This document shows positions 6,634 through 59,439 of a stretch of 64,000 nucleotides of DNA, in pieces. The stretch covers positions 232,577-296,576 of the forward strand of contig ONNR01000001.1 in assembly GCA_900319235.1 (NCBI GenBank). Reading direction: 5' to 3'. Every line of letters begins with the position of its first letter. Position 1 is the stretch's first letter. The DNA is from an uncultured Prevotellaceae bacterium (GTDB taxonomy: Bacteria; Bacteroidota; Bacteroidia; Bacteroidales; UBA3663). The position numbers were made by a program, and so were the translations under genes. The notes under the pieces were generated by a model, which was not told the origin of the DNA, made no database searches, and saw only the letters and a list, made by a program, of their open reading frames with translations.

Positions 6634-8592
6634 ATGTCTGATTACAAATGGAAGTTTGCACGCATCGGTGGTGTCACCCGCGTGTACATCAGTTCAGCCG
6701 AAGACATCAAGCACCTCGGCGAACTTGACAAGAAGATGTGGACCGTACTGTCTTGTCCAGTGAAGGGTCTTGAGATTGATGAGCAGTCGCTCGCGTATAT
6801 GGACACCAATGGAGATGGACAGATACGTGTCGATGAAGTGATTGGCGTTTCCCAGTGGCTCTGCAAGGTACTGAAGGATCTTCAGCCTGTTGTCGAGGGC
6901 AAGGATGTCCTGCCCCTCAGTGCAATCAACCAGGAGGATGAGGAAGGTAAGAAAATCTATGATGTTGCTGCCGATATCCTTAGCCAGCTTGGAAAAGAAA
7001 CTGCCGAAATTTCATTGGCCGACAGCAAGGGTTGTCTCGATGCATATCGCAAGGCAAAGTTCGAAGCTGCTCTCGAAGCTGCCAAGAAAGAGGCCGAGGT
7101 TGCTGCTCCTTACGGCGACAAGACTGCCGACATTGATGCCGCTTATAAGGCTCTCGATGCCAAGGTGAAGGACTTCTTCCTGCGCGGCAAGCTCACCAAG
7201 TATTCGAAGGAAAGCACAGCTGCTCTCGACGTACAGGTGGCAAGCATCGAAGGAATTTCTCCTGCCAACCTGACCGACAAACTTGCTGAAATTGCATCTT
7301 ATCCTATCGCTCGCATCAAGGAAGGTGTAGAGGCTATCGACCTCAGCGAGCCTATCAACCCAGCATGGGCTGCTCAGTTCGCTACTGTCAAGGCAGCTCT
7401 TGATCCGAAGGCTAAGGTTCTTACCGAAGCTGATTGGAATGAGATTGGTGCCAAACTTAAGGCATTCGAAGAGTATCAGAAGAGCATCTCCATCACCGAG
7501 GCTGACATCACCGTCGATGAGGAACAGGCTGCCAAGCAGTCGGTTGACAAGCTGTTGCACTTGACTCGCGATTTCTTCACACTGCTTCGCAACTACATTA
7601 CTTTGCAGGACCTCTACAACACAAAGAAGTGGGCCATCTTCCAGGTTGGTACACTTGTTGTTGACCAGCGCACATGCGACCTTTGCGTACGCGTAACCGA
7701 TGCTGCTGCCATGGCTGCCCAGGCTGCAAAGAGTGGTATGTACCTGCTCACTTGCGACTGCGTCAGCAAATCAACTGGCAAGACCATGAAGATTATTGCT
7801 GCCGTTACTGTAGGCGAAGTTGGTGATCTCTTCGTGGGCAAGAACTGCATCTTCTACGATGTCTATGGCGTGGATTACGATGCCAAGATTGTCAACATTA
7901 TTGACAATCCTATCTCTATCAAACAGGCTGCTTGGAGTCCATATCGCAAGTTCTCGAACTTCGTAGGTGAGCAGATCAGCAAGTTCGCAGCAGAGAAGGA
8001 AGGTGCAGTAATGTCTGATGCCACCGCGAAGTTCAATGCAAAGACAGCTGAAGTGAAGAGTGCGGATCTTACCAATGCTGCTGCCGCAAAAGAGGCTGGA
8101 AAGACTGCTGGAAGCTTCGACATCGCCAAGTTCTCTGGTGTCTTTGCTGCTATCGGCTTAGGTCTCGGTATGTTGGGCTCTTGCGTTGTTGCCATCTTCA
8201 GTGGCTTGGTTAAGCTCAGCTTGTGGCAGTTGATTCTTGTCATTCTGGCTATCTTCCTCATCATTTCAGGTCCGTCGATGTTCATTGCATGGCTCAAGCT
8301 TCGCAAGCGTAACCTTGCTCCAATACTTAATGCACAGGGTTGGGCTGTCAATGCTGCTGCCAAGATTAACATCCCATTCGGCAATGTACTGACCCAGGCT
8401 GTCAACTTCCCAGTTAAGTTTGACGTGAAGGATCCATATCCAGACAAGACGCATCGCATTCGCAACTTCTTCCTTATCCTGTTGCTCATCCTTATCGTTG
8501 CATACCTTATCTGCAATGCGCTTGGTTTTGACTGGCTTGCATATTGTAAGGAGCTTTGCACAGGTTCATCTGCTCCTGCTAATGTGAACTGA
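6634..8592 (+). CDS. EF-hand membrane protein of unknown function
   Basis: A 652-residue protein that I cannot assign to a characterised family. Residues 57-68 (DTNGDGQIRVDE) form a canonical 12-residue EF-hand calcium loop with ligands at D57, N59, D61, Q63 and E68. Residues 130-330 are Ala/Lys/Glu-rich and probably helical. A Cys pair (TCDLC) and a further CDC lie in the 345-395 region. Three hydrophobic segments lie near 507-531, 534-558 and 613-634, so the bulk is probably cytoplasmic with a C-terminal membrane anchor. No signal peptide is visible at the N-terminus (MSDYKWKFARIGG). It follows hisC in the place often held by hisB and its stop overlaps the tcdA start by one base, suggesting co-transcription. 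Confidence 0.85.
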   Translation: MSDYKWKFARIGGVTRVYISSAEDIKHLGELDKKMWTVLSCPVKGLEIDEQSLAYMDTNGDGQIRVDEVIGVSQWLCKVLKDLQPVVEGKDVLPLSAINQEDEEGKKIYDVAADILSQLGKETAEISLADSKGCLDAYRKAKFEAALEAAKKEAEVAAPYGDKTADIDAAYKALDAKVKDFFLRGKLTKYSKESTAALDVQVASIEGISPANLTDKLAEIASYPIARIKEGVEAIDLSEPINPAWAAQFATVKAALDPKAKVLTEADWNEIGAKLKAFEEYQKSISITEADITVDEEQAAKQSVDKLLHLTRDFFTLLRNYITLQDLYNTKKWAIFQVGTLVVDQRTCDLCVRVTDAAAMAAQAAKSGMYLLTCDCVSKSTGKTMKIIAAVTVGEVGDLFVGKNCIFYDVYGVDYDAKIVNIIDNPISIKQAAWSPYRKFSNFVGEQISKFAAEKEGAVMSDATAKFNAKTAEVKSADLTNAAAAKEAGKTAGSFDIAKFSGVFAAIGLGLGMLGSCVVAIFSGLVKLSLWQLILVILAIFLIISGPSMFIAWLKLRKRNLAPILNAQGWAVNAAAKINIPFGNVLTQAVNFPVKFDVKDPYPDKTHRIRNFFLILLLILIVAYLICNALGFDWLAYCKELCTGSSAPANVN

Positions 8593-9374
8593 TGAAATCA
8601 TCTTTTGAACGAGGAATGCTCCGTCGTTCGGAGTTACTTTTAGGAACCTCGGCAATGCAACGCATTGCCGAGGCTCGTGTCATTATTTTTGGTGTCGGTG
8701 GCGTTGGCTCGTGGTGTGCCGAGAGTTTGGTACGTAGTGGCATTCGTCATCTAACCGTTGTTGATTCCGATCGAGTCTGCATCACCAATTGTAATCGTCA
8801 ATTGATGGCTACTTCTAAGACGATAGGGCAAGTAAAGGTTGAGGTTTTGCGTAAACGACTGCTTGAAATCAATCCTAATGCAGAAGTCATAGCCTTACAA
8901 ATGGTTTATGATGCTTCGACAGCAGAGTCGTTCCATCTCGAAAACTTCGACTATATAATTGATGCCATCGATTCGTTGACCGAGAAGGCACAACTCATTC
9001 TTCATGCAACTAGTCTTCCCAAGGAGATTCAGTTCTTTTCGTCGATGGGTGCGGCACTTCGTATCGATCCATTCAAGGTTCGTGCTACTGAGTTTTGGAA
9101 AATCAAAGGAGATGCCCTGGCTCGTGCTTTGCGCAATAAGTACAAGAAGCTAAAGATTTTTCCAGGCCGTAAATTTCTTTGCGTCTATAGCGAGGAAACA
9201 CCTATGACCAATAAGATTCAAGCAGAGAAACCAACCAACTCTGAATTACTTGATGGTAGTATTGATTGGAATGCTCGTAAGGCCCAAATCAATGGTTCTT
9301 TGATTCATGTTACTGGCATCTTTGGCATGTCTCTCGCTGGGTTGGTTATACAATCTATCAGCTCAAAAGGATGA
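8592..9374 (+). CDS. tcdA: tRNA threonylcarbamoyladenosine dehydratase
   Basis: TcdA (formerly CsdL/YgdL) is an E1-like ATP-dependent enzyme that cyclises t6A37 of tRNA to ct6A. The nucleotide-binding loop GVGGVGSWCAESLVRSGI, the VVDSDRVCITNCNRQ strand and DYIIDAIDS are the hallmarks of this ThiF-fold subgroup. The length (260 aa) is typical. The start ATG overlaps the TGA of the previous gene by one base (TGATG), which implies translational coupling. A perfect terminator overlaps its stop. Confidence 0.92.
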   Translation: MKSSFERGMLRRSELLLGTSAMQRIAEARVIIFGVGGVGSWCAESLVRSGIRHLTVVDSDRVCITNCNRQLMATSKTIGQVKVEVLRKRLLEINPNAEVIALQMVYDASTAESFHLENFDYIIDAIDSLTEKAQLILHATSLPKEIQFFSSMGAALRIDPFKVRATEFWKIKGDALARALRNKYKKLKIFPGRKFLCVYSEETPMTNKIQAEKPTNSELLDGSIDWNARKAQINGSLIHVTGIFGMSLAGLVIQSISSKG

Positions 9375-9498: not shown

Positions 9499-10024
9499 TA
9501 GCTTAATCTCGTACTTTTCTGTGCTATCTCTGAATGCGGTAGCACAGTTTCGTACTTATTTGTGCTATCTCAGAACGCGGTAGCACAGTTTCGTACTTTT
9601 TTGTGCTACCGCGAATGTATATAGCACAATCTTGGCCGAAATTATTCTATCGCGAAAGTATATAGTGCAATCTCGGCCGAAATTGTTCTATCGCGAATGT
9701 ATATAGCACAATCTCGGCCGAAATTGTTCTATCGCGAATGTATATAGCACAATCTCGGCCGAAATTGATCTACCGCGAATGTATATAGCACAATGTTGGC
9801 CGAAATTGTTCTATTGAGAAAATTAGTAGCACAATGTTGGCCGAGATTGTACTGTTGCGAAAATTAATAGCACAATGTTGGCCGAGATTGTTCTATTGCG
9901 AAAAATAATAGCACAATGTTGGCCGAAATTGTTCTTTTGCGAAAATTAATAGCACAATGTTGGCCGAAATTGTTCTATAGCGAATATATATAGCACAATC
10001 TCGGCCGAGATTGTGCTATAATCG
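9499..10024. repeat. 41-bp tandem array of imperfect palindromes, about 12.7 copies
   Basis: Units begin with TAGCACAA-type sequence at 9499, 9540, 9581, 9622, 9663, 9704, 9745, 9786, 9827, 9868, 9909, 9950 and 9991, exactly 41 bp apart with no insertions or deletions. Each unit is a 28-bp near-palindrome plus a 13-bp spacer. The last unit is a perfect 28-bp palindrome: TAGCACAATCTCGG followed by its reverse complement. Units 1-3 have a different core (TTTCGTAC), units 4-7 share a TCTCGGCCGAAATT core, and units 8-12 share a TGTTGGCCGA core, so there are three subfamilies in order. Two units (6 and 7) differ at only two bases. It is not CRISPR, since the 13-bp spacers are themselves repeated. 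Confidence 0.97.
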
Positions 10025-10191: not shown

Positions 10192-10199
10192 TAATTTTG
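10192..10199 (+). promoter_or_regulatory. -7 element of the LruC lipoprotein gene
   Basis: TAATTTTG matches TAnnTTTG. A weak GTTG lies near the -33 position (10173). It overlaps an upstream ATG at 10197, which argues for the later start at 10248. Confidence 0.5.
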
Positions 10200-10247
10200 C
10201 ACCCAAATTATATGATTCTTCATACAAATAATTATATAGGTACAATT

Positions 10248-11873
10248 ATGAAAAAAAATTTACTTTCTTTTGGAGGTAGCACCTTTGCAGCTTTCCTCTT
10301 TATCTTCTCTTTCTCATCCTGCCATGATGAGGAAGTCGAAAACACTTCTGAGTTAGCTTATCGCCACGCTTACGAAGATAACTTCGTTAAGCAATATGGT
10401 GAGATCAATCCTAACCAAACGTGGGATTTCTCTTCTTATGCCAAGCGGTATAAGCTGAATGGTGCACTTACCCGTGCCACAATGGAGGATGAATATAAGT
10501 CTATTGCACAAGATGACGGTTACTATTATGTGCCATCTGATATTACAACGTTTATAACAAATAATTTCCCCGAGCGAGGAAACAATGCCAGCAAGACAAA
10601 GGCATTTGTGCTTAATGCTGATCAAGATTGTGACTTCGAAGTAGCCTTTGTTTATCAAGGAAGGAGTGAACCTAATTATACTTTATATTATGTAATTTTT
10701 GATACTCAAACTAATACATCTTCCAGAAATGTATTATTTTCTAAAGGTAGTATAGAGGTAAGCTCCAATGGTAATTCTTATTCTCAGCTCGGCACATCTT
10801 GGGTTAATGGCGATGGACCTTGGACCAATCCTTCAACTTATCCTTATGTCAGATCAAAACCTATTCAGATTCACGCGAAGAAAAATTCATTTATTTATTT
10901 CTTCATTGAAATTACCGATCCTTCAACGAGTGATGGTAGTAGCGTTACTCAGTCTCATCAGTTTGGATGGGCTGGTGATGAACTTGCATCGATTGATACA
11001 CCACATACCATTGGATTAGTCGAAATTGATACACCGGCAAATATTAAAGCGATTGATCCTAACTATGAGGCATATCTCCTTGCTGTTGATGACTTCTGTC
11101 TCACTTGCAAAGCTGCTGGTATAGTTACAGATAATTCACTGAGCGTACAGGATTTTAATGATTGTATGTTCCTTATTGCAGGTAATGTTCCAACACCAAG
11201 TACAGTTGATGTTGGTGAGATTAAAACCATAATAGAAAAACGTTATATGGTCGAGGATCTTTATGGTTATGATTATGATTTCAATGACATTGTTGTGGAT
11301 GCAATTCAGACGACGCTTACTCCATTCACATTTGTACATCCAACTTTGGAAGATCCAGATGGTGAATTCATTGTAAATTATAATGGAGCAACTAAGACTC
11401 AATCGGCAACTCTTGCTCATCAGTGTGGTACTTTGCCTTATAAGATTCAAATAGGTAGTGCCACCTTTGGTCAAGTTACTGATCCTACAAATAAATCACA
11501 AAGTGAAACTCAGTTGGCTAGTGATACTGATTTAGGCGGTAATGTAACAACCACTATACCTGATGGTTATAATGGAAATGAACCGAATATTACAAAAACA
11601 ATTATTGAAAAAGATTGGATTCCAAGTGAAAACAATATTACTGCCTATATTTGGACGAAGGGTACCTCGCCAACGGCATCTTATAGTTATTACAATGAAA
11701 ACGGAATTTGGGATGATGGATGGACTGGCGTTTGGACTTCTGAATTCCCCAAAAAAGGTGGTGTTCCTTACATAATCGCTGTTGACCCAAATGTTGATTG
11801 GATGGGCGAGAAGGAATCCATCTTTGAAGCACATCCCGATTGGAATGGCGGTGATATGACAAGTGGCAATTAA
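10248..11873 (+). CDS. LruC/DUF4842-domain surface lipoprotein
   Basis: The chosen start gives MKKNLLSFGGSTFAAFLFIFSFSSCHDEE, a lipoprotein signal with the lipobox Cys at about residue 25; the ATG 51 bp upstream overlaps the promoter and is rejected. The segment FVKQYGEINPNQTWDFS near residue 50 and YGYDYDFNDIVVDAIQT near residue 340 are the recurring marks of Bacteroidetes proteins with a DUF4842 (LruC) C-terminal domain. These are cell-surface lipoproteins of unknown role. The protein is Thr/Ser/Asn-rich and acidic. It is a single-gene unit with its own promoter and a perfect terminator, immediately downstream of the 41-bp array. Confidence 0.85.
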   Translation: MKKNLLSFGGSTFAAFLFIFSFSSCHDEEVENTSELAYRHAYEDNFVKQYGEINPNQTWDFSSYAKRYKLNGALTRATMEDEYKSIAQDDGYYYVPSDITTFITNNFPERGNNASKTKAFVLNADQDCDFEVAFVYQGRSEPNYTLYYVIFDTQTNTSSRNVLFSKGSIEVSSNGNSYSQLGTSWVNGDGPWTNPSTYPYVRSKPIQIHAKKNSFIYFFIEITDPSTSDGSSVTQSHQFGWAGDELASIDTPHTIGLVEIDTPANIKAIDPNYEAYLLAVDDFCLTCKAAGIVTDNSLSVQDFNDCMFLIAGNVPTPSTVDVGEIKTIIEKRYMVEDLYGYDYDFNDIVVDAIQTTLTPFTFVHPTLEDPDGEFIVNYNGATKTQSATLAHQCGTLPYKIQIGSATFGQVTDPTNKSQSETQLASDTDLGGNVTTTIPDGYNGNEPNITKTIIEKDWIPSENNITAYIWTKGTSPTASYSYYNENGIWDDGWTGVWTSEFPKKGGVPYIIAVDPNVDWMGEKESIFEAHPDWNGGDMTSGN

Positions 11874-12142: not shown

Positions 12143-15100
12143 ATGGCAGCAAAACGTAATTACGACCTTCTTCTGCAGCAGCTGAAGTCGTTCATTCCCG
12201 AAACACGTATTTACACCGATGAACTCCGCACGCTTGGCTGGGGTACGGATGCCAGCTTCTATCGTATGATTCCACGTATCGTGGTTCGTTCGAAAGGAGA
12301 GGAGGAAGTATCGCGCATTGTCAAGACTTGTTACGACAATCATATTCCTTTTACTTTCCGTGCAGCGGGCACAGCTCTTTCTGGCCAGAGTATGAGTGAC
12401 TCTGTACTGATTGTGGCAGGAAAGAACTGGGAGAAATGGTCGCTTAGCGACGATCAGGAACAAATCACGCTACAACCAGGTATCCTTGGAGGTCGCGTCA
12501 ACCAGATACTCAAACCTTACGGACGTGTATTCCCACCTGACCCTGCTTCCATCAATAGCGCTATGGTTGGCGGTATAGTTGGCAACAATGCTTCGGGTAT
12601 GAACTGCGGTGTGCATGCCAACTCCGACCGTATGCTCATCTCCGCGAAGGTGATTCTGACCGATGGTACAATTCTTGACACGGGTGACGAAAAGAGTCGC
12701 GAAGCATTCCGCAAGTCGCATCCCAAATTCCTCAAGAAGATCGAGAACCTGCGAGACAAGGTGCGTGCAAACACCAAGCTCGCTGAACGTATCAAGAAGA
12801 AATACAGTATCAAGAATGTGACGGGCTTGAATATTCGTCCGTTGATAGCCTACGACGACCCATTCGACATCATTGCTCACTCTATGGTTGGAGCCGAAGG
12901 AACACTTGCATTCATTGCTGGTGTGACCATGCGTACACTCCACGAATATCCTTATCGTGCTTCTGCTATGGTTTATTTCATGACCATGAAGGAAAGTTGC
13001 GAAGGTGTTGTTGCTTTGAAGAAACTGAAATCTTCGGACGACGACATCAAGATGAGTGCCGAGAACTTGATGGTCAAGAGTGCCGAGATGCTCGATTACC
13101 TGTCGTTGGCTTCGGTCGATGATCCCGTCTATCTGCAGTACAAGAAGGATGTTGATGCCGGCAAGATTGAAGGTGTCAAGCCAGGTGATTACCACAATCT
13201 CACAGCCATTCTGACCGAGACGAAGGCCATGACCCATGAGGACCTGCAGCTCAAGATCGACACCATCAAGAAGACCTTGGGCCAGTTCCAGCTTTATATC
13301 CCTGCTGAGTTTACTGAGGATCCGAAGATTTATGGCAAGTATTGGGCCATCCGTTCGGGTATCTTCCCGACTGTTGGTGCCATGCGTCCCATTGGAACAT
13401 CTTGCCTCATCGAGGACGTTGCCTTCCCGGTCAATGACCTGCCCGAAGCCACTGTGAAACTTCAGAAGATTATTGCAGACTTCGGTTATAGCGATGGCTG
13501 TATCTATGGACATGCTTTCGAAGGAAACTATCACTTCATCCTCAACCAGAGCTTCAATGAGGAGAAGGAGGTGCAGCGATATGCAAAGATGATGCACGAG
13601 GTGGCCAAACTCGTCGTTGAGGAATATGATGGCTCGTTGAAAGCAGAACATGGCACTGGCCGCAATATGGCACCGTTTGTCAAATACGAATGGGGCGAGG
13701 AAGCCTATAATACGATGAAGGAACTGAAGGAAATCTTCGATCCCGAATATCTGTTGAATCCCGGTGTAATCTTCACCGACAATCCGAACTGCTTCATCGA
13801 ACACCTTAAGCAACTTCCTGAACTTGACTATAACTTCGACGAAGTGCCTGATGGCGCCAAATATCTCGCCTATATGGGCAAGGTGAAATCTTCGACCGAA
13901 GAGATGATCGAAGGTGTCAAGAAGGCAAACAAGTGCATCGAGTGCGGTTTCTGCGAATTCAACTGTATGAGCTGCGGTCTTACCTTGAGTTCTCGTATGC
14001 GTATTGCCATCCAGCGTGAGATTCTGAATCTTCGCAAATCCGGAAAGCCAGAAGACTTGGCCCGCGCCAATCGACTGGAACAGCAATATGATTACTATGG
14101 CAATCAGACCTGCGCAGCCGATGGACTTTGTGCAACTTCCTGCCCGATGAAGATTAATACAGGCGATCTCACACACCTCATTCGTCAGTTCAAGATGAAC
14201 AAGAGCAAGGGACTTTACAATGTAGGTGAGTTTGCTGCTAATCATATGGCAGGCATCGAGACCACTTTGCGTGGAGTTTTAGGCTTGGCCAATTTCGGTC
14301 ATACGATTCTTGGAAGTTCGTTGATGAGTGGCCTATGTAATGGCCTGCATAAGATAGGTATTCCGCTTTGGACGCCATCTATGCCCAAGCCGAATTACGT
14401 TGATGTCAAGCGTCTAATGGCACAAGAAGCCACTTACGACAAGACACATCAGAAGGCCAAGAAGGTCGTTTATTTCCCAAGCTGCTTGAATCAGACACTC
14501 GGACTGGCCAAGGGTGCACCTGTGAAGCAGAGTGTCGTCGATGAGATGGTTCAGCTCATGAACAAGGCTGGTTATGAAGTTATCTTCCCGAAGGGCATGA
14601 ACAAGATGTGCTGCGGACAGATCTGGGAATCGAAAGGCATGCTCGACATTGCCGACCGCAAGAGTGCAGAACTCGAGAAGGCACTTTGGGAAGCCAGCAA
14701 CGAGGGTGAATATCCGATTCTTTGCGACCAAAGCCCATGTCTGCATCGTATGCGCAAGGTGATGCCACGACTGAAACTTTACGAACCCGTTGAGTTCATC
14801 CTCAAGTTCCTCAAGGACAATCTCGTCTTCAAGAAACTGGATCGAACCGTCGCCGTTCATATCACATGTTCTACCCGTGAGATGGGATTGGGCGATAGCC
14901 TCGTCGAACTTGCAAGTCTTTGCGCCACCAAGGTTGTCGTTCCAGAAGGTGTCGGATGCTGCGGTTTCGCAGGCGACAAGGGATTCTCACATCCTGAGAT
15001 GAATAAACACGCTCTTCGTCATCTGAAACCTGCCATCGAACGCAATCATGTGGTTTACGGCTATTCCAACAGCCGCACTTGCGAAATTGGCTTGCAAACG

Positions 15101-15163
15101 CATTCGGGTGTGCCTTACATGAGTATTGCCTATCTGGTGAATGAGGCTACAACACCGAAATAA
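12143..15163 (+). CDS. FAD-linked oxidoreductase with Fe-S domains (D-lactate/glycolate dehydrogenase type)
   Basis: A 1006-residue fusion. Residues 1-250 are a PCMH-type FAD-binding domain (FRAAGTALSGQSMSDSVLI; GGIVGNNASGMNCG). Residues 250-560 are the oxidase C-terminal domain ending in ICGHAFEGNYHF-like and AEHGTGRNMAPF motifs. Near residue 595 is KCIECGFCEFNC, then CAADGLCATSCPM, giving two 4Fe-4S sites. The rest carries two cysteine-rich CCG domains (FPSCLNQ...MCCGQ and ITCSTRE...GCCGFAGDKGF). This order matches respiratory D-lactate or 2-hydroxyacid dehydrogenases that fuse GlcD- and GlpC-like parts and pass electrons to the quinone pool. The exact substrate cannot be read. It has its own promoter and is followed by a palindrome of the 41-bp family. 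Confidence 0.9.
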   Translation: MAAKRNYDLLLQQLKSFIPETRIYTDELRTLGWGTDASFYRMIPRIVVRSKGEEEVSRIVKTCYDNHIPFTFRAAGTALSGQSMSDSVLIVAGKNWEKWSLSDDQEQITLQPGILGGRVNQILKPYGRVFPPDPASINSAMVGGIVGNNASGMNCGVHANSDRMLISAKVILTDGTILDTGDEKSREAFRKSHPKFLKKIENLRDKVRANTKLAERIKKKYSIKNVTGLNIRPLIAYDDPFDIIAHSMVGAEGTLAFIAGVTMRTLHEYPYRASAMVYFMTMKESCEGVVALKKLKSSDDDIKMSAENLMVKSAEMLDYLSLASVDDPVYLQYKKDVDAGKIEGVKPGDYHNLTAILTETKAMTHEDLQLKIDTIKKTLGQFQLYIPAEFTEDPKIYGKYWAIRSGIFPTVGAMRPIGTSCLIEDVAFPVNDLPEATVKLQKIIADFGYSDGCIYGHAFEGNYHFILNQSFNEEKEVQRYAKMMHEVAKLVVEEYDGSLKAEHGTGRNMAPFVKYEWGEEAYNTMKELKEIFDPEYLLNPGVIFTDNPNCFIEHLKQLPELDYNFDEVPDGAKYLAYMGKVKSSTEEMIEGVKKANKCIECGFCEFNCMSCGLTLSSRMRIAIQREILNLRKSGKPEDLARANRLEQQYDYYGNQTCAADGLCATSCPMKINTGDLTHLIRQFKMNKSKGLYNVGEFAANHMAGIETTLRGVLGLANFGHTILGSSLMSGLCNGLHKIGIPLWTPSMPKPNYVDVKRLMAQEATYDKTHQKAKKVVYFPSCLNQTLGLAKGAPVKQSVVDEMVQLMNKAGYEVIFPKGMNKMCCGQIWESKGMLDIADRKSAELEKALWEASNEGEYPILCDQSPCLHRMRKVMPRLKLYEPVEFILKFLKDNLVFKKLDRTVAVHITCSTREMGLGDSLVELASLCATKVVVPEGVGCCGFAGDKGFSHPEMNKHALRHLKPAIERNHVVYGYSNSRTCEIGLQTHSGVPYMSIAYLVNEATTPK

Positions 15164-15179
15164 TAATTTCTATCTTATG

Positions 15180-15245
15180 TAGCACAATCTCAGCCGAGAT
15201 TGTGCTACTTATATCGCATTATTTCCAATCTTGGTCGAGATTAAC
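15180..15245. repeat. Second, two-unit copy of the 41-bp palindromic repeat
   Basis: TAGCACAATCTCAG plus CCGAGATTGTGCTA (15180-15207) is the 28-bp palindrome with one mismatch. A decayed second unit begins exactly 41 bp later (15221), with CAATCTTGG and TCGAGATT in the same offsets. It lies 17 bp after the dehydrogenase stop and ends about 10 bp before the next start. No T run follows, so it does not look like a normal terminator. Confidence 0.9.
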
Positions 15246-15256
15246 CAACTATCATC

Positions 15257-16519
15257 ATGAAAAGACTTATCTCTCTATTCGAAAAACCCGACAATCTGAA
15301 AGTCAAAACCAGCTACAAACTCGAACCATCCATTCAGATTGAACGTCAATTGGCTGAACAAATCTATAATGCTCTGCAAGGACCCGTTGTGGAAGAGGTA
15401 ATGCGTAAGATACGCATCTCGAGCAGCGATACCTATTGGCGCAGCAATATGGAAGGCCATAGCCTGAAAGTTGATCAAGAATTACTTCCCGATATCTACG
15501 ACCTCTGCCATGAGGTGAAGAAGAAATTGGGATTTGAAGGCAAGGTGGATTTCTATATTACAGGCGATTCAACGGTCAATGCCTTCTCGGTTGCATCCGA
15601 AGACGAAAATGAACCCAATATTGTCAATATCAATTCGGGCCTCTTCGATCTGATGTCGAAGGATGAACTGCGTTTTGTCATTGGTCATGAACTGGGACAC
15701 CTTATCAACAAGGATACGGCTCTGGCTCGACTTATTGGATTCGTCTTTCCTCCCGAAACGAAATCTCCTGTGATGCTGCAATATAAGATTCGTCTGCATG
15801 ACCAGCTCGCCGAATTGGTAGCCGATCGTTATGGTTACATGGCCATCGAAAATCTGGGAGTCTGTGTCACAGCTTTCTTCAAGATGGCATCAGGCCTTGA
15901 CTTGGAGAAGATGAATGTCAGCATCGATGCCTTAATTGCCGACAATCAGAAACGTTTGGATTATTTCCTGCACGACAAGGGAACGAGCCGTGCTTCACAC
16001 CCCGTGAATCCCATTCGTGTGCAAGCGCTCAACCTCTTTGCGACCTCCAAGACTCAAGAGGAGCTGCAGAAGGGTATGGACGAACTCATAACCATTCTTT
16101 TGAAAGTCGGTGATAGCGAACTCGATGAATATACGGCTAGGTTTGTTGCTTCTGCTGGCCTTATTGTTGCGAATGCCGATGGAGAAATCAATAAGGATGA
16201 GGTTGATGACATCTTGACTGAACTTTCTTCGTTGAAGATTTTCCCGCGCCAGTTCCTTGAGGAAATTGCCAATGGAGATGTCTCTGAAATTTTCCACGAG
16301 TCTGTTGCAAAGATGATCAACATCAACCCAGGTCTTCGTGAAGCCATGCTCAATTACCTTATCACCATTGTGATGAGCGACAAGAGCATCACCAAAGAAG
16401 AGATCGACCTGCTTTACGAATTCGGCGAAAGCATCGCACTCAGCGAGATGGAAGTTGCTCAATGCATCGCTGCACTTGTTCAGCAGCGTTTCATCCCCAG
16501 CCACGAGCTCCTCTGCTGA
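15257..16519 (+). CDS. M48-family metalloprotease with C-terminal TerB-like domain
   Basis: A 420-residue protein. The zinc motif HELGH is at 144-148, with the third ligand expected at E186 in ELVADRYGY, so the gluzincin active site is intact. No membrane segments or signal peptide are visible, unlike HtpX, so the protein is probably cytoplasmic. Residues about 290-410 (RFVASAGLIVANADGEINKDEVDDI ... IVMSDKSITKEEIDLLYEFGE) have the paired acidic D-G-x-I/K-x-E pattern of TerB-like domains, which bind metal and occur in stress-response gene sets. It heads a run of four same-strand genes with short gaps. The substrate is unknown. Confidence 0.85.
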   Translation: MKRLISLFEKPDNLKVKTSYKLEPSIQIERQLAEQIYNALQGPVVEEVMRKIRISSSDTYWRSNMEGHSLKVDQELLPDIYDLCHEVKKKLGFEGKVDFYITGDSTVNAFSVASEDENEPNIVNINSGLFDLMSKDELRFVIGHELGHLINKDTALARLIGFVFPPETKSPVMLQYKIRLHDQLAELVADRYGYMAIENLGVCVTAFFKMASGLDLEKMNVSIDALIADNQKRLDYFLHDKGTSRASHPVNPIRVQALNLFATSKTQEELQKGMDELITILLKVGDSELDEYTARFVASAGLIVANADGEINKDEVDDILTELSSLKIFPRQFLEEIANGDVSEIFHESVAKMININPGLREAMLNYLITIVMSDKSITKEEIDLLYEFGESIALSEMEVAQCIAALVQQRFIPSHELLC

Positions 16520-54847: not shown

Positions 54848-54869
54848 TGTTTTTGGGTTTTAAGTTGTT

Positions 54870-54918
54870 AATAGTGACTATAATGTTTATAGTAACTATA
54901 GTGAATATAGTGACTATA
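54870..54918. repeat. Three 18-bp repeats with TATAGTNACTATA palindromes
   Basis: Palindromes ATAGTGACTATA, TATAGTAACTATA and TATAGTGACTATA begin at 54870, 54888 and 54906, exactly 18 bp apart, in the gap between the DUF4465 gene and the next surface-protein gene. The same element recurs at 55933-55963. Confidence 0.85.
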
Positions 54919-54926
54919 GATTATTA

Positions 54927-59144: not shown

Positions 59145-59239
59145 TCTTTTTGCGTTAACTGAACATTCGCCCTCCTGTCGATCGCAGGATATTCCAAGCC
59201 AGAGGCTTGGGGTTCGGAAAAGGTTCGAGAACCTGGGCA

Positions 59240-59420
59240 GTCGTCAGCAGGTCTTCTGACTCGTCATCCCCTTGGGCAGTCTTCCCGTCTGTTAACATGG
59301 ACAGTGACATACCGAGGCCCGTGGGTTAGTGATGACATACAGCAGCGGGACTGTTCCGGATTCACACCGGATTCCCTTTCAATCCGCAGGGGTCAAGCTG
59401 CAGAACTGACGGCGTAGTAT
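59240..59420 (-). ncRNA. Cobalamin riboswitch
   Basis: Read on the minus strand, the leader shows the conserved order: GGGAATCCGGTGTGAATCC, then AACAGTCCCGCTGCTGT, a GTCACTG box (usual GCCACTG), GGGAAGACTGCCC and AGTCAGAAGACCTGC. These are the core blocks of the adenosyl/methylcobalamin aptamer. It lies about 95 bp before the btuB start and just after the promoter, so high B12 would shut off the operon. Exact ends are estimates. Confidence 0.95.
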
Positions 59421-59439
59421 TGTTTCTTCTAATTGTGTG

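Follow-up and report, generated by a model that had tools for sequence, protein, structure and literature searches.

Plasmid partition (centromere) repeat arrays comprise about ten sites that lie in helical phase and are bound cooperatively. BIMEs are regularly spaced palindromes, and BIME-2 elements bind gyrase and have been suggested to contribute to genome organisation (PMC2817692, PMC6379681); clusters of BIME-2 and REP sequences are described from E. coli and other bacteria (PMC2817692, PMC6379681, PMC3733652). The nearest case that we found in the Bacteroidales is the BrickBuilt MITE of P. gingivalis, in which 23-nt repeats present in 1 to 22.8 copies are accompanied by a leader and a tail with terminal inverted repeats (PMC4596501).

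The locus considered here is an array of palindromes in a 64,000-nucleotide stretch of DNA from an uncultured Prevotellaceae bacterium, the whole of which we refer to as the window (Table 1). A first-pass annotation had described thirteen units that start every 41 bp without slip, and this description held, as all intervals in the array are 41 bp with zero slip. It had also placed a 28-bp dyad in each unit and called the last one perfect. When dyads are scored as complementary pairs out of 14, against a background from contig C30 that has a mean of 3.5 and reaches at least 9 at 0.35% of positions, units 1–13 score 7, 10, 9, 10, 11, 12, 11, 11, 10, 11, 10, 11 and 14; the last unit is indeed perfect, over a longer span than had been claimed, and units 2–13 score 9–14, but unit 1 is weak.

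Table 1 Position, strand and basis of the array, its units and neighbouring features, in window coordinates.
Feature	Position	Strand	Basis or remark
Whole array: 13 dyads of 28 bp, 13-bp linkers	9499..10018	.	Centres exactly 41 bp apart
Units 1–3: family D (TAGCACAGTTTCGTAC..TGTGCTA)	9499..9608	.	Same family as 9/11 units of the C6 array
Units 4–13: family C (TAGCACAATCTCGGCCGAGATTGTGCTA)	9622..10018	.	Family of the C5 and C9 arrays
Unit 13: perfect 32-bp palindrome	9989..10020	.	Dyad scoring
ThiF-family gene upstream of the array	8592..9374	+	Pfam
ORF downstream of the array, by eye like a secreted lipoprotein	10197..11873	+	Resemblance by eye
Minimal two-unit copy: two related palindromes 41 bp apart	15176..15247	.	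Between ORFs 12143–15163 and 15257–16519

The units follow one another in ordered types, with the core CGTAC in units 1–3, CTTGG or CTCGG in units 4–7, GTTGG in units 8–12 and the perfect form in unit 13, and TRF splits the array into 9509–9608 (2.4 copies, 0% indels) and 9601–10019 (10.2 copies, 2% indels). Three ordered subfamilies had previously been taken as a record of stepwise local amplification. The order is there, but units 1–3 and units 4–13 represent two dispersed families, D and C, and because each of these builds arrays elsewhere in the genome (the C6 array is mostly D, those on C5 and C9 are C), we regard the boundary between them as a junction of two dispersed families; a local amplification step at this boundary is not shown by the repeats, and local amplification as the sole process is unlikely. 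The upstream ThiF-family gene is one that we take to be TcdA-like. A comparison with Rfam at gathering scores returned no match inside the array; elsewhere in the window are a cobalamin riboswitch (RF00174, 96.9 bits) at 59229–59425 on the minus strand and a short tandem repeat of 18/9 bp at 54866–54919.

The array is one of many. In the source genome (3.72 Mb in 46 contigs, 86.5% complete) we measured 45 arrays, and four further arrays were found (C32, C30:175.5k, C40:0.1k and C35:186k), so that a unique local site is ruled out and a single centromere-like site, among the possibilities raised earlier, is unlikely given that the module is dispersed. A family-blind detector returned 10 arrays in the 608 kb of three sample contigs, which extrapolates to about 60 in the whole genome. 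Some arrays are found no more than about 1 kb from the end of a contig (C40, C25 and C46 in the source genome, C18 and C33 in G003, C52 and C62 in G006); assemblies may therefore be interrupted by arrays, and the counts per genome may be underestimates. Regular spacing of arrays along contigs was suspected on C35 and was not borne out, by eye, on C30. Besides C and D, arrays are built from families A (AGCACTCTGACGGCCGACAGAGTGCT), B (ATAACCAATCTTGGCCAAGAATGGTTAT) and F (ATGTCC..GGACAT) and from some unclassed palindromes, and the form, a 28-bp dyad with a 13–14-bp linker, is kept across families whose palindromes differ. Blocks of F type lie beside blocks of A or A/B type at L084, L159, L162, L176, L178 and L239. 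As for mobile carriers, the window array had no match among plasmids and phages, and viral contigs contained no exact match to the unit patterns of A, C or B.

These counts bear on the simplest account of the locus, namely an ordinary minisatellite that expanded locally at one site and may have begun as a terminator hairpin. The ordered subfamilies inside the window array are what such a process would leave, and the unit of the C32 array in the source genome resembles, by eye, a terminator-like hairpin that adjoins a different array in the relative G011 (L238 3126–3668; L193 ~2885–2925), as though a local hairpin had served as the seed of the C32 array. We nevertheless consider this account very improbable, since arrays of these families recur at numerous sites in the source genome and in five relatives, and some orthologous arrays keep their units one to one across species.

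The period of the arrays is narrow. Intervals from dyad to dyad were 41 or 42 bp in 474 of the 495 accepted across the 45 arrays (113 at 41 and 361 at 42), a count that is conditional on a chain detector that admits only about 41–42 bp and its multiples; the mean of the 41- and 42-bp intervals is 41.76 bp, or 4 × 10.44 bp. TRF, which is free of any set period, agrees on 41–42 bp at the array loci, and a scan over exact single periods from 29 to 89 on two contigs gave runs solely at 40–43, 54, 62–64 and 81–85 bp. At other periods, the family-blind scan of the 608 kb returned 10 runs at 21–22 bp, 7 at 27–28, 2 at 30–31 and one each at 34–35, 52–53 and 60–61 bp, and none at 37–38, 46–47, 48–49 or 55–56 bp; the 21–22 and 27–28 bp classes are probably the same arrays caught through period multiples, and at a looser detector score the control periods were not empty. 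Neighbouring palindromes within arrays differ at 32% of positions, and the phase is therefore not a by-product of recent identity. The 42-bp families have a common linker consensus, so the common period could be partly inherited. Phased curvature was set aside when G+C and WW steps, examined by harmonic analysis, showed no shared 10.5-bp peak.

Unit number is confined as well: among 43 loci, 23 have 10 or 11 units, 36 have 9–14 and 38 have at most 14, the remainder having 16–25 units, several of them as an F block next to an A or A/B block. The 42-bp arrays, defined for this purpose as the 38 with at least four 42-bp intervals, further contain a second dyad exactly 21 bp from the first, with a mean pairing of 0.47 against about 0.22 alongside. 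In a sliding-centre test this half-period dyad outscored the mean of its neighbours in each of the 38 arrays, and in 29 it also exceeded their maximum. The 41-bp arrays, the kind found in the window (n = 18), had no half-period dyad, the midpoint exceeding the mean of its neighbours in 10 of 18.

Matches to families C and D occurred in 6 of 60 related genomes, the source genome included, and these were 6 of the 15 genomes of its genus and 0 of the 45 others; families A and B matched in the same six of the 15. The family-blind detector, run on 400 kb of G003, found 4 arrays; in a 369-kb sample of G005, a genome without sequence matches, it found none. From 478 kb of other Bacteroidales, comprising 35 loci, it returned a single short palindrome run of 21–23 bp. 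Tandem arrays with a unit of 22 bp, about half the period of the window array, were observed in other Bacteroidales (L061 12395–12583, L072 3050–3161 and L074 8782–8854), the last of them directly after a ThiF-family gene. The first-pass annotation had proposed helical phasing together with a shared, non-coding role at the level of DNA, which would have become unlikely had the repeat been confined to this site and varied freely in period; the search of the genome and its relatives gave the opposite result, and with 41–42 bp recurring in dozens of arrays, several families and several relatives the proposal is the better reading.

We then compared orthologous sites, with the relatives' loci mostly chosen for holding arrays and their flanks matched to loci of the source genome afterwards. 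Among 36 such loci, 24 with arrays match sites of the source genome at one or both flanks, which gives 24 pairs at 14 sites, and 11 further array loci had flanks that were unmatched among the source loci fetched. The C32 site came to light solely because it matched the flank of an array in a relative, and it likewise held an array. Arrays at matched sites, compared here between species, differ by 0–3 units in 20 of the 24 pairs. The clearest correspondence is at L026, where the arrays of the source genome and of two other species have 10 units each, with identities of 0.84 and 0.83 when aligned without offset and no higher than 0.77 at any other offset, between flanks that are 87–91% identical in the two species; the correspondence is weaker elsewhere, with a best identity of 0.63–0.73 in 7 of 16 pairs.

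The family that occupies a slot can differ between species. With both flanks matched, the slot of the window array holds D3C10 in the source genome and an A-like 42-bp array in G003. No array lies next to the ThiF-family gene in G011 and G004; ahead of the next conserved gene, an array is present in G011 and in G006, in the latter of which the ThiF-family gene was not found. The C32 slot, again matched at both flanks and about 580–600 bp long, is F-like in the source genome, C in G003 and of a D-like type in G011. Where one flank was matched, the C5 site carries D in G006 and C in the source genome, G003 and G007, the C17:104k site carries C in G006 and A/B in the source genome, and the C11 site of L176 differs in family, being A/B in G007.

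Two sites were followed across relatives that had not been picked by their arrays. At C30:58k G003 and G011 have the array, whereas G004 and G007 lack it and have 70 and 77 bp in place of about 485 bp; the flank search gave no match in G006. At C40:77k G003 has the array, G006 and G007 lack it (136 and 109 bp against about 550 bp), G004 lacks it within a wider deletion, and in G011 a different gene is found with no array beside the matched flank. Arrays therefore appear to come and go as blocks, and because some relatives lack them at the corresponding positions, the data do not establish that any one array is required. Within the source genome the arrays of L092, L093 and L095 have a common order of unit types, L092 and L093 reaching an identity of 0.74, compared with 0.585 for the second-best offset, a pattern that would fit block copying; when all 903 pairs of its arrays were ranked by identity, most among those listed had no single best offset.

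These histories are also what one would look for if the palindromes formed a selfish or neutral family that dispersed in blocks and diverged by drift while doing nothing for the host, its period going back to a single ancestral array and being maintained through exchange between units. Such a family would leave empty orthologous sites, arrays at different sites with a common order of units, as in L092 and L093, a linker consensus common to the 42-bp families and a distribution confined to part of one genus, and we regard it as a possible explanation, although on balance an unlikely one. It does not readily account for a unit number that stays at about 10–11 and for intervals that change little despite strong divergence, nor for palindromes that are conserved more than linkers between species. 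A Y1 transposase, moreover, was not found in the source genome, and the presence of this enzyme does not track the arrays.

Arrays are over-represented between convergent genes, which surround 16 of 40 arrays but 34 of 192 control gaps (Fisher p 0.005); the 40 are the 45 measured arrays less four with a gene missing on one side and one with an ORF inside, the control gaps are the other gaps of at least 80 bp on three contigs, and the gene calls are crude. Between divergent genes the deficit (5/40 versus 47/192) is not significant (p 0.14). A recurrent neighbouring gene was not borne out by Pfam for 63 of 81 flanking proteins, in which GH88 and alpha-amylase were commonest (3 each) and HTH_18 and Sigma70_r2 occurred twice; neither a transposase or recombinase nor a partition gene was found near arrays in these 63 proteins, among the 25 of 129 Pfam families listed.

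The excess between convergent genes could point to a bidirectional RNA device, in which stacked hairpins stop or protect transcripts arriving from either side and in which no strand bias is required. At C40:77k, moreover, what looks by eye like a terminator hairpin takes the place of the array in relatives that lack it, and the source genome has the array without that hairpin, but at C30:58k a terminator-like hairpin is found both with and without the array. At several loci arrays had seemed by eye to start after terminators; a scan found terminator-like sites at 5 of 43 array edges and in 10 of 55 control gaps, and the impression was dropped. A T-rich stretch follows the dyad on 10 of 1080 dyad sides, so the T-tracts of intrinsic terminators are hardly present, in agreement with the earlier statement that the window array is not a simple terminator. 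The window units fold weakly and unevenly, at −0.9 to −10.3 kcal/mol on the plus strand with the last unit excepted, and across 19 co-directional arrays the fold energies of the two strands are −7.07 and −7.08 kcal/mol, the sense strand being lower in 11 of 19.

RNA hairpins under selection should show G-U pairs in favour of the transcribed strand. In the 19 co-directional arrays we counted 209 such pairs in the sense and 198 in the antisense orientation, that is, no strand bias. As a device acting on both strands would mask this signal, we also tested compensation, using 12 array pairs with 107 unit pairs after units below 24/42 identity had been dropped. Compensatory double changes that keep pairing numbered 14, against 10.4 in shuffled data (sd 2.5, maximum 17), which is not significant, and one-sided changes that make or break pairing were common, at 296 against 313 in the shuffled data. 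In the same 107 unit pairs the palindrome diverges between species at half the rate of the linker (0.135 versus 0.272), and the least divergent dyad positions are 1–2, 6, 9–10 and 13, which may be conserved in the manner of protein contacts. The wobble, compensation and energy tests thus all failed to lend support to an RNA hairpin, and a fixed period of 41–42 bp is left unexplained by it; we consider an RNA device improbable. A site at the level of DNA fits better, and the absence of G-U bias, compensation at the shuffled level and the conservation of the palindrome and of particular positions in it together argue for a putative protein site on double-stranded DNA; the half-period dyad of the 42-bp arrays points the same way.

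Taken together, a single odd array has become a genome-wide class of near-fixed form, for which we infer a function as follows. We tentatively read the window array, giving this reading somewhat less than an even chance, as a member of a dispersed intergenic set in part of one genus, composed mostly of 10–13 dyads spaced by four helical turns, to which a putative protein that recognises dyads would bind on a single helical face; its role would be like that of BIME-2 in E. coli. The protein would assemble cooperatively on the dyads, and the phase may then be what selection acts on. Binding would serve the topology or compaction of the chromosome at gene ends, and the modules may spread to new gene ends as whole blocks. 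BIME-2 is, by analogy, likely the working analogue for such a putative scaffold role. Replacement of whole families in one slot sits badly with a single sequence-specific protein, unless the protein reads shape or several proteins are involved. Also counting against the reading are the lack of a common 10.5-bp rhythm in composition, the missing half-period dyad in the 41-bp arrays and the frequency of one-sided changes that affect pairing. A bolder formulation, which we hold to be rather doubtful, is that chromosomes in part of the genus carry a set of about sixty DNA lattices whose size is nearly fixed. Selection would then act on form, with dyads at intervals of four turns (two turns in the 42-bp arrays) and units numbering about ten, and sequence would be exchangeable, which would make the lattices a putative platform for one or more proteins that organise or relax the chromosome at gene ends.

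If the arrays do bind a protein, they would amount to a natural many-copy experiment on helical phasing, each genome offering dozens of sites, one geometry being realised in several sequences, and individual sites being occupied in some relatives and empty in others. The purpose of REP and BIME clusters would then be open to test, as would the selection of topology elements for shape over sequence.

A literature search that lacked most subscription papers returned no description of such arrays. The arrays are not CRISPR, as had been noted before, since their 13–14-bp linkers repeat one another in place of unique spacers, judging from the repeat structure. With plasmid partition arrays they have in common about ten phased sites, but here there are dozens of arrays per chromosome. 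BrickBuilt is likewise an intergenic tandem array of the Bacteroidales dispersed over many sites (PMC4596501); the arrays described here differ from it in having a unit of 41–42 bp instead of 23 nt and 9–14 units at 36 of 43 loci. No leader or tail of the BrickBuilt kind was found, in that no flank was common to the arrays: 17 similar pieces were detected between pairs of 86 flanks, most of them at most 33 bp long, and five longer ones may be neighbouring repeat units.

The suggestion of a REP-type element amplified in place stood in part. Regularly spaced extragenic palindromes in clusters, the form of REP and BIME, are found here. GTAG, however, lies beside the palindrome in 25 of 51 units of C and D, the families of the window, and in 39 of 401 units of A, B and F, with 66 unclassed units omitted, and a CGTC tag in 9 of the 401 and 0 of the 51. 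A search for the Y1 transposase (RAYT, PF01797) returned none at E 0.001 in the source genome, 86.5% complete, or in G003, G004 and G006; PF01797 exceeded the cut-off in G007 and G011, that is, in 2 of the 6 genomes with arrays compared with 4 of the 9 without array matches, and with none in the source genome and no correlation with arrays across the genus we rejected a RAYT-driven REP. Given the missing transposase and the split of GTAG between families, we do not class the arrays as REP or BIME. Relative to BIME-2 and REP clusters, they combine several palindrome families with one period of 41–42 bp and about ten units, one family can be replaced by another in the same slot, and the 42-bp arrays carry a second dyad at half the period.
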